Assembly: GCF_903970965.1 (NCBI RefSeq)
Contig: NZ_CAJCKW010000004.1
Span: 248,001-312,000, forward strand
From: Aureimonas sp. ME7
GTDB lineage: Bacteria; Pseudomonadota; Alphaproteobacteria; Rhizobiales; Rhizobiaceae
DNA length: 64,000 nucleotides
Direction: 5' to 3'
The notes under the pieces: generated by a model
What the model was told of the DNA's origin: nothing
Databases searched by the model: none
The model's input: the letters and a program-made list of their open reading frames with translations, nothing else
Shown: piece after piece, positions 62,955 through 64,000 of the stretch
How positions within the stretch are numbered: position 1 is the first letter of the stretch
Layout: the number at the start of each line of letters is the position of its first letter
Program-made: the position numbers and the translations under genes

Positions 62955-63031
<77 letters not shown>

Positions 63032-63070
63032 ATCCGGATCATCGGAACTTAGATCTCGGAGTTGTTCGGA

Positions 63071-63376
63071 ATGGTCGCTCGCATCTACCGCCCCGCACGC
63101 ACTGCCATGCAGTCGGGCAAGGGAAAAACCCGCGAGTGGCTCTTCCTCTACGAGCCCGAACAGGCCAAGACCGTCGAGCCTCTGATGGGCTATACGTCTA
63201 CCGGCGACATGCGTTCGCAGATCCGCCTTTCCTTCGAAACGAAGGAACTCGCGATCGAATACGCCGAGCGCAACGGCATTCCCTACACGGTGGAAGAGCA
63301 GTACATCGCCGGCCGTCCGAAAGTTTCCTATTCCGACAACTTCCGCTACGATCGTCGCCAGCCTTGGACGCATTGA
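63071..63376 (+). CDS. ETC complex I subunit, NDUFS4-like
   Basis: 101 residues from ATG 63071 (a TTG three codons upstream is less likely). The pattern A-R-I-Y-R-P-A-R-T-A-M-Q-S-G, W-L-F-L-Y-E-P-E, S-Q-I-R-L-S-F-E-T-K-E-L-A-I-E-Y-A-E-R-N-G-I-P-Y and Y-S-D-N-F is the ETC_C1_NDUFA4 / NDUFS4 family, an accessory subunit of respiratory complex I present in alphaproteobacteria and mitochondria. It lies between two tRNA genes, apart from the nuo operon. Confidence 0.93.
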   Translation: MVARIYRPARTAMQSGKGKTREWLFLYEPEQAKTVEPLMGYTSTGDMRSQIRLSFETKELAIEYAERNGIPYTVEEQYIAGRPKVSYSDNFRYDRRQPWTH

Positions 63377-63396: not shown

Positions 63397-63472
63397 GGCC
63401 CCGTAGCTCAGAGGATAGAGCACCGGCCTTCTAAGCCGATGGTCGCAGGTTCGAATCCTGCCGGGGTCGCCA
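63397..63472 (+). tRNA. tRNA-Arg (UCU), likely attachment site
   Basis: 76 nt with encoded CCA. Acceptor G-G-C-C-C-C-G pairs with C-G-G-G-G-T-C; anticodon loop C-T-T-C-T-A-A gives anticodon TCT; T-loop GTTCGAATCC. The adjacent integrase gene reads towards its 3' end, the usual arrangement of a tRNA used as an integration site. Confidence 0.97.
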
Positions 63473-63504
63473 AAATTCTAGCAAAAACAACACCTTACAT
63501 GGGT

Positions 63505-63537
63505 GTTCGCCAAGGCAGTTCGCCACCCGGTTCGCCA
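63505..63537. repeat. three direct repeats GTTCGCCA next to the integrase
   Basis: Copies start at 63505, 63518 and 63530 (spacing 13 and 12 bp) in the 70 bp between the tRNA-Arg end and the integrase stop. They resemble the tRNA 3' end GGTCGCCA and could be integrase or excisionase arm sites. Confidence 0.7.
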
Positions 63538-63542
63538 GCGGA

Positions 63543-64000
63543 TTATCCAGCCCTTCGACGCAGCGCCACGACCTTGTTCATCCCCTCCATTGCAAGCCGG
63601 ATCTGGGCCGCCTCACGGCTGTAGAGTTCGGCATGCTCGATGTCGTCGTGGCCGAGGATATCCATGATCTGTCGAGTGGACGCGTCGCTCTCAGCCAGGA
63701 TCCGGCCGAGTGTCTTCCGTAAGCCGTGAAGGGTGCAGCCCTCCGGCAGCTTGGCGGCCTTCGTCCACGCCCGCATGCGTCCGGTGATGGACTTATCCGT
63801 GAAGGGCTTCCCGTAGGCGGTGACGATCACCGTCTCGCCTCTGACCGGCGAGCCGTCCAGAACCTCAGCCAGCATAGGCACGATGGGGATAGTCAGCTGC
63901 TTGCCGGTTTTCTTCTGCGCGAGCACGAACGCATCGATCTCGACGTTCTCGCCTCGATCTCGGAACGTCAGCTTCTGGCGCTGGTCCCATCGAAGGCGGG
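63543..64000 (-). CDS. tyrosine recombinase (phage-type integrase), C-terminal part, cut by window
   Basis: At least 151 residues; the frame is open to the right edge (24 further codons beyond the last in-frame GTG at 63926), so the N-terminus is outside. The catalytic region is present: H-G-L-R-K-T (His and Arg), L-G-H-D-D as the second histidine and the nucleophile Tyr in A-E-L-Y-S-R-E. The first catalytic arginine would lie upstream, outside the window. Composition resembles integrases of rhizobial genomic islands and prophages. It reads towards tRNA-Arg(UCU). Confidence 0.93.
   Translation of the reverse strand, partial: RLRWDQRQKLTFRDRGENVEIDAFVLAQKKTGKQLTIPIVPMLAEVLDGSPVRGETVIVTAYGKPFTDKSITGRMRAWTKAAKLPEGCTLHGLRKTLGRILAESDASTRQIMDILGHDDIEHAELYSREAAQIRLAMEGMNKVVALRRRAG

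Follow-up and report, generated by a model that had tools for sequence, protein, structure and literature searches.

Integration in a tRNA gene with displacement of a tRNA fragment is the Islander signature (PMC4383910). Among phages, Salmonella phage epsilon34 and E. coli prophage DLP12 integrate at argU; their attP, located just downstream of int, holds 43 bp of this tRNA-Arg gene, and the 3' part of the gene is replaced when the phage integrates (PMC2629481). Both are lambdoid enterobacterial phages, to which the locus described here is likened by its att layout. The argU tRNA-Arg reads with UCU. By integrase sequence, the closest named relatives in 32 phage records are Agrobacterium phage Rivra (PV764937; 54% identity over 285 residues) and Microcystis phage Mae-JY35 (49%), both of which carry an annotated repressor. 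In Rivra, int is followed by GGCTAACC repeats, by a core that resembles a tRNA 3' end and, 38 bp past that core, by an inverted repeat. The core, TGGTGGGCCCGGAGGG, corresponds to the end of tRNA-Met(CAU), as found beside its relatives. A search of the literature yielded no paper on Rivra and, among the titles listed, none on an Aureimonas prophage at such a site.

The stretch of DNA analyzed here (hereafter the window; 64,000 nucleotides) belongs to the draft genome of Aureimonas sp. ME7, which comprises 60 contigs. It corresponds to C4:248001-312000, and contig C4 ends at 312552, just 552 bp beyond the window (window-equivalent 64552). The right part of the window very probably contains the attL of an element that was integrated at the 3' end of tRNA-Arg(UCU) by a Rivra-type integrase, with its likely attR at C10:105605-105623 and an int gene that was later cut by an insertion sequence (IS). 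The element appears to be decayed and of phage type. It adds one more case of known tRNA-site integration and is ordinary in itself; what is gained is a map of the target tRNA, the core, the arm-type repeats and the two likely junctions with the chromosome, together with an explanation for its probable immobility.

The tRNA-Arg(UCU) gene, its flanks and the same site in relatives

The tRNA-Arg(UCU) gene (63397..63472, + strand; anticodon TCT), an intact gene of 76 nt detected with ARAGORN and present in relatives too, would be the attB target. It is preceded by tRNA-Pro(UGG) (62955..63031, +) and an NDUS4-type gene (63062..63376, +), which form a conserved chromosomal flank: this stretch shows 75-85% identity in 20 same-genus genomes, in one of which (G002) the contig ends before tRNA-Arg. 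The first-pass annotation regarded everything left of the tRNA as housekeeping, which holds for the six left-side proteins tested, all of which have ordinary chromosomal Pfam matches (RecJ, M15 peptidase, glyoxalase, cold-shock, DUF192 and NDUS4-type). It also described a tyrosine recombinase gene 70 bp from the 3' end of the tRNA and aimed at it, an arrangement confirmed by ARAGORN, the open reading frame and Pfam.

The attL core is a 19-bp sequence, ATCCTGCCGGGGTCGCCAA (63455..63473, +), which is repeated exactly on contig C10. Between int and tRNA-Arg there are three GGCTAACC-type repeats on the - strand. The first of these arm-type-like repeats, TGGCGAAC (63505..63512), has the same layout in homologues, and two further copies lie at 63518..63525 and 63530..63537. 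The integrase most likely binds, as arm sites, the three TGGCGAAC repeats beside int and an inverted copy found 39 bp beyond the attR core. The window's element resembles Rivra in its integrase, its arm-type repeats and the spacing of its core, and it differs from Rivra by the sequence of this core, which is the end of tRNA-Arg(UCU), by its repeat, GGCGAAC versus GGCTAACC, and by the truncation of int.

Comparison with relatives that lack the element had been proposed as a check. In none of the 19 same-genus relatives with downstream sequence do the 1.5 kb that follow tRNA-Arg contain an integrase homologue, and six more distant genomes are likewise devoid of an integrase match after tRNA-Arg. 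Similarly, a set of 22 integrase ORFs used as queries, including a short one of 42 aa, gave zero matches in the post-tRNA stretches of these 19 relatives (20 kb each, except for four of 3.3, 10.2, 14.3 and 17.4 kb), while the same queries gave 21 matches in the stretches of the ME7 genome itself, as a positive control. A site without integrase in relatives and the 19-bp copy of the tRNA end both support the proposal that the tRNA marks a boundary between chromosome and element. The nearest relatives carry a ROK gene after tRNA-Arg. In ME7, the genes that come after tRNA-Arg in close relatives form a block at C1:344652-355008, inside another contig; one further rearrangement is therefore needed, which counts against the proposed integration. 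In six relatives (L033, L037, L039, L040, L041 and L042) a loosely similar A/T-rich motif, e.g., AATCAATGACTTAG, comes right after tRNA-Arg, with no integrase match in the stretch examined; these motifs are possibly traces of other integrations.

The integrase gene and its lineage

The integrase ORF (63543..64000, - strand) is closed by a stop codon at 63543; its frame leaves the window at the right edge to continue up to window-equivalent 64421 (C4:312421). It encodes the C-terminal part of a tyrosine integrase, 292 residues in all, which matches PF00589 (Phage_integrase, 3.4e-17) as well as PHROG integrase families. Residues R136, K171, H232, R235, H258 and Y267, which we take to be the catalytic set of the integrase, are invariant in a five-member alignment. 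The frame is interrupted by the left end of an IS, assigned to the IS3 family from its annotated homologues, at C4:312429 (window-equivalent 64429), and some 75 N-terminal residues are gone relative to full-length relatives. With a 356-residue relative as query, the N-terminal piece was not found in the genome. A search of the 44 examined stretches (0.53 of 4.38 Mb) did not find it either, the best E value there being 0.27.

The IS in int has 11 further matches in the genome. IS3-family ends are found at many contig ends, with 12 left and 14, perhaps 15, right ends, as a 15th contig end clusters with the 14 right ends identified. None of these 14 right ends carries, as judged by eye, the 4-bp flank that would belong to the copy in int. 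Since only two of the 12 left ends can be paired, also by eye, with a right end by an identical 4-bp flank (CTCC and CGAC), IS-driven rearrangement is suggested.

These features are best explained by the following scenario. The attP of the element would have recombined site-specifically with the 3' end of tRNA-Arg(UCU), a reaction that would be catalyzed by the Rivra-type tyrosine integrase. As known for tyrosine integrases, recombination within the 3' end would leave the gene intact, and the tRNA would have stayed whole because a copy of its 3' end came in with the element. The displaced 19-bp end would be the attR at C10:105605-105623. An IS3-family IS later entered the 5' part of int and removed an N-terminal segment, which by analogy with lambda would be the arm-binding one. 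Because of this cut, the element has most likely become immobile, with loss of excision.

A profile scan yielded 66 genomic integrase loci, the first 31 of which (L231-L261) were examined. In 17 of the 31, a tRNA gene lies within 400 bp of the integrase with its 3' end toward it; the offsets are 58-78 bp (71 in the window, when counted in the same manner), and the tRNAs are tRNA-Met(CAU) in 12 cases, tRNA-Glu(CUC) in four and tRNA-Arg(CCU) in one. Three or four GGCTAACC/GGCGAACC-type repeats separate int from the tRNA in 16 of these 17 loci, and the stop codon often lies within the first. On the other hand, 14 of the 31 have no facing tRNA within 400 bp, which counts against the proposed integration; in L233 it is found only at 583 bp. 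Among these 14 is the copy of Aureimonas sp. Leaf324 (L074:8863-10060, genome G010), the closest same-genus integrase, with no tRNA found beside it; the adjoining gene is presumably Tad-pilus-like, and GGGCCCACC after this integrase is perhaps a tRNA-end relic.

Relatives of the integrase are also found in 93 viral contigs. From the 80 that were retained, 48 were examined, and two of these have a complete tRNA gene facing the integrase (L307, Met; L349, Glu); many end at the integrase. Another contig, L322 (IMGVR_UViG_2627854086_000002), provides an independent tie of this integrase type to the tRNA, as its integrase (57.6% identity over 255 residues) is directly followed by 49 bp identical to the 3' end of tRNA-Arg(UCU), with two GGCTAACC/GGCGAACC repeats. 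It differs from the window in that its sequence departs from the tRNA past these 49 bp, as in an attP or attR, and that its integrase matches in two frames.

We lean toward the view that these proteins form a lineage of mostly Hyphomicrobiales phage integrases with a near-fixed attL ruler, in which int stops within or next to the first of its three or four repeats and the facing tRNA end lies 58-78 bp further on. The lineage would have switched among four or more tRNA targets (Met-CAU, Glu-CUC, Arg-CCU and Arg-UCU), the repeats drifting along (GGCTAACC, GGCGAACC, GTCTAACC and GGATAACC). If so, it would represent a natural series for the study of target switching between tRNA genes by a tyrosine integrase. 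With the homologue set, related integrases that are directed at different tRNA genes can be compared while the spacing stays nearly constant.

The copy of the tRNA end on contig C10

The last 17 bases of tRNA-Arg recur exactly once, at C10:105606-105622, and the match extends to 19 bp (C10:105605-105623); the chance copies expected per genome are 0.004 and 1.1e-4 for 17 and 19 bp, respectively. Counting against this, a search with the 17-mer at up to two mismatches gave three more places, each with 2 mismatches, and a reversed control gave one match. A 25-base probe of the tRNA end with up to three mismatches missed the C10 copy. A cross-match among tRNA genes was rejected as a source of the repeat, as the 25-mer matched only its own gene and tRNA-Arg(CCG), and no tRNA gene covers the exact 17-mer match on C10. 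Two other places for the right end were also discarded: at the displaced C1 block, C1:326000-345900 has no exact match to the tRNA end longer than 10 bp, and the ROK gene of C18, with 52.7-55.2% protein identity, was taken as a paralogue.

On the element side of the C10 core, the inverted copy of the 8-mer repeat stands at 39 bp, as compared with 38 bp in the attP of Rivra. On the other side, the core is followed by a 112-aa ORF, tRNA-Val and tRNA-Asp. In all five best-matching relatives (G016, G010, G008, G004 and G006; 83-85% at the tRNA-Arg region), the latter two genes are located downstream of tRNA-Arg, on the same contig and the opposite strand, 22-43 kb off (29.9, 22.0, 27.6, 42.5 and 24.4 kb, respectively), with tRNA-Val preceding tRNA-Asp as on C10. 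G012 (54 kb) and G005 (76 kb) share this arrangement, which brings it to seven of 20 same-genus relatives; counting against it, five (G003, G007, G013, G017 and G018) have the genes on one contig in another arrangement, and eight have them on different contigs. The exact core, the arm repeat at the Rivra spacing and a tRNA-Val/Asp flank that lies downstream of tRNA-Arg in relatives indicate, at the level of sequence, that the C10 copy is likely the attR partner of attL.

A copy of the tRNA 3' end had been expected within about 200 kb. The search has indeed revealed an exact one, which is flanked by an arm-type repeat toward the element and by syntenic DNA toward the chromosome; the two ends sit on different contigs, and hence no distance can be given. 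The Islander signature (PMC4383910) calls for an intact tRNA gene at one end, which is present, for an integrase inside, which is there though IS-truncated, and for a tRNA fragment on the same replicon with the element in between, for which the candidate here is an exact 19-bp copy in the right orientation with a syntenic flank, on another contig.

Alternative explanations and the interior of the element

The attL might be genuine and the C10 copy the end of another, related element, the true attR having been lost by IS-mediated deletion. The displacement of the downstream block to C1 and the IS copies, which break the assembly and whose flanks so rarely pair, would fit such a history. Nevertheless, the exactness and orientation of the C10 core, the Rivra-like distance of its arm repeat and the synteny of its flank in all five best-matching relatives make it very improbable. 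Sequence of the C10 locus reaches 737 bp into the element and breaks off there, at the presumed end of the contig, within a repeat common to C35 and C36 that resembles the start of an IS1182-type transposase. ORFs of Rivra, Mae-JY35 and the Leaf324 prophage were compared by tblastn with the 44 stretches, part of which reads as N, and apart from the integrase this gave two isolated matches, a SRAP gene on C35 (47.7% identity with a Rivra ORF) and one on C25, which is what the stretches yielded toward the structural, lysis and repressor genes of a Rivra-type temperate phage. No gene run like that of Rivra, Mae-JY35 or the Leaf324 prophage was detected in these stretches, a comparison that would miss an unrelated body. 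A single-sequence scan of genome contigs (28 stretches) returned no relatives.

It is conceivable, though somewhat less likely than not, that only a remnant is left, in which the prophage body was deleted and attL, the cut integrase, IS copies, a small ORF and attR remain. The IS cut in int, the end of C10 so close to attR in a repeat common to other contig ends, and the lack of a phage body in the examined stretches are consistent with this; these stretches, however, amount to just 0.53 Mb, the interior of the element lies outside the assembled ends, and the SRAP gene is located on C35, which carries the C10-end repeat. A satellite or a non-phage island may also have used the integrase, since islands and phages share integrases and attL is not linked to any phage gene in this genome. 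This appears rather unlikely, as the closest named relatives are the integrases of Rivra and Mae-JY35 and others lie in viral contigs. Plasmid integrases reach a best identity of 35% among the matches listed (best 10 of 31 records).

Other integrases are found next to tRNA genes in the same genome. A second one, of 548 aa (DUF6538 and Phage_integrase), adjoins tRNA-Leu(CAG) on contig C31 (L053, 811-2620), and the left end of an IS3-family copy lies about 0.7 kb further on; this locus probably represents one more element that integrated at a tRNA gene and then decayed. A third match to a tyrosine recombinase (L004/L080, C9:181671-182322) faces tRNA-Arg(CCU), about 100 bp away.
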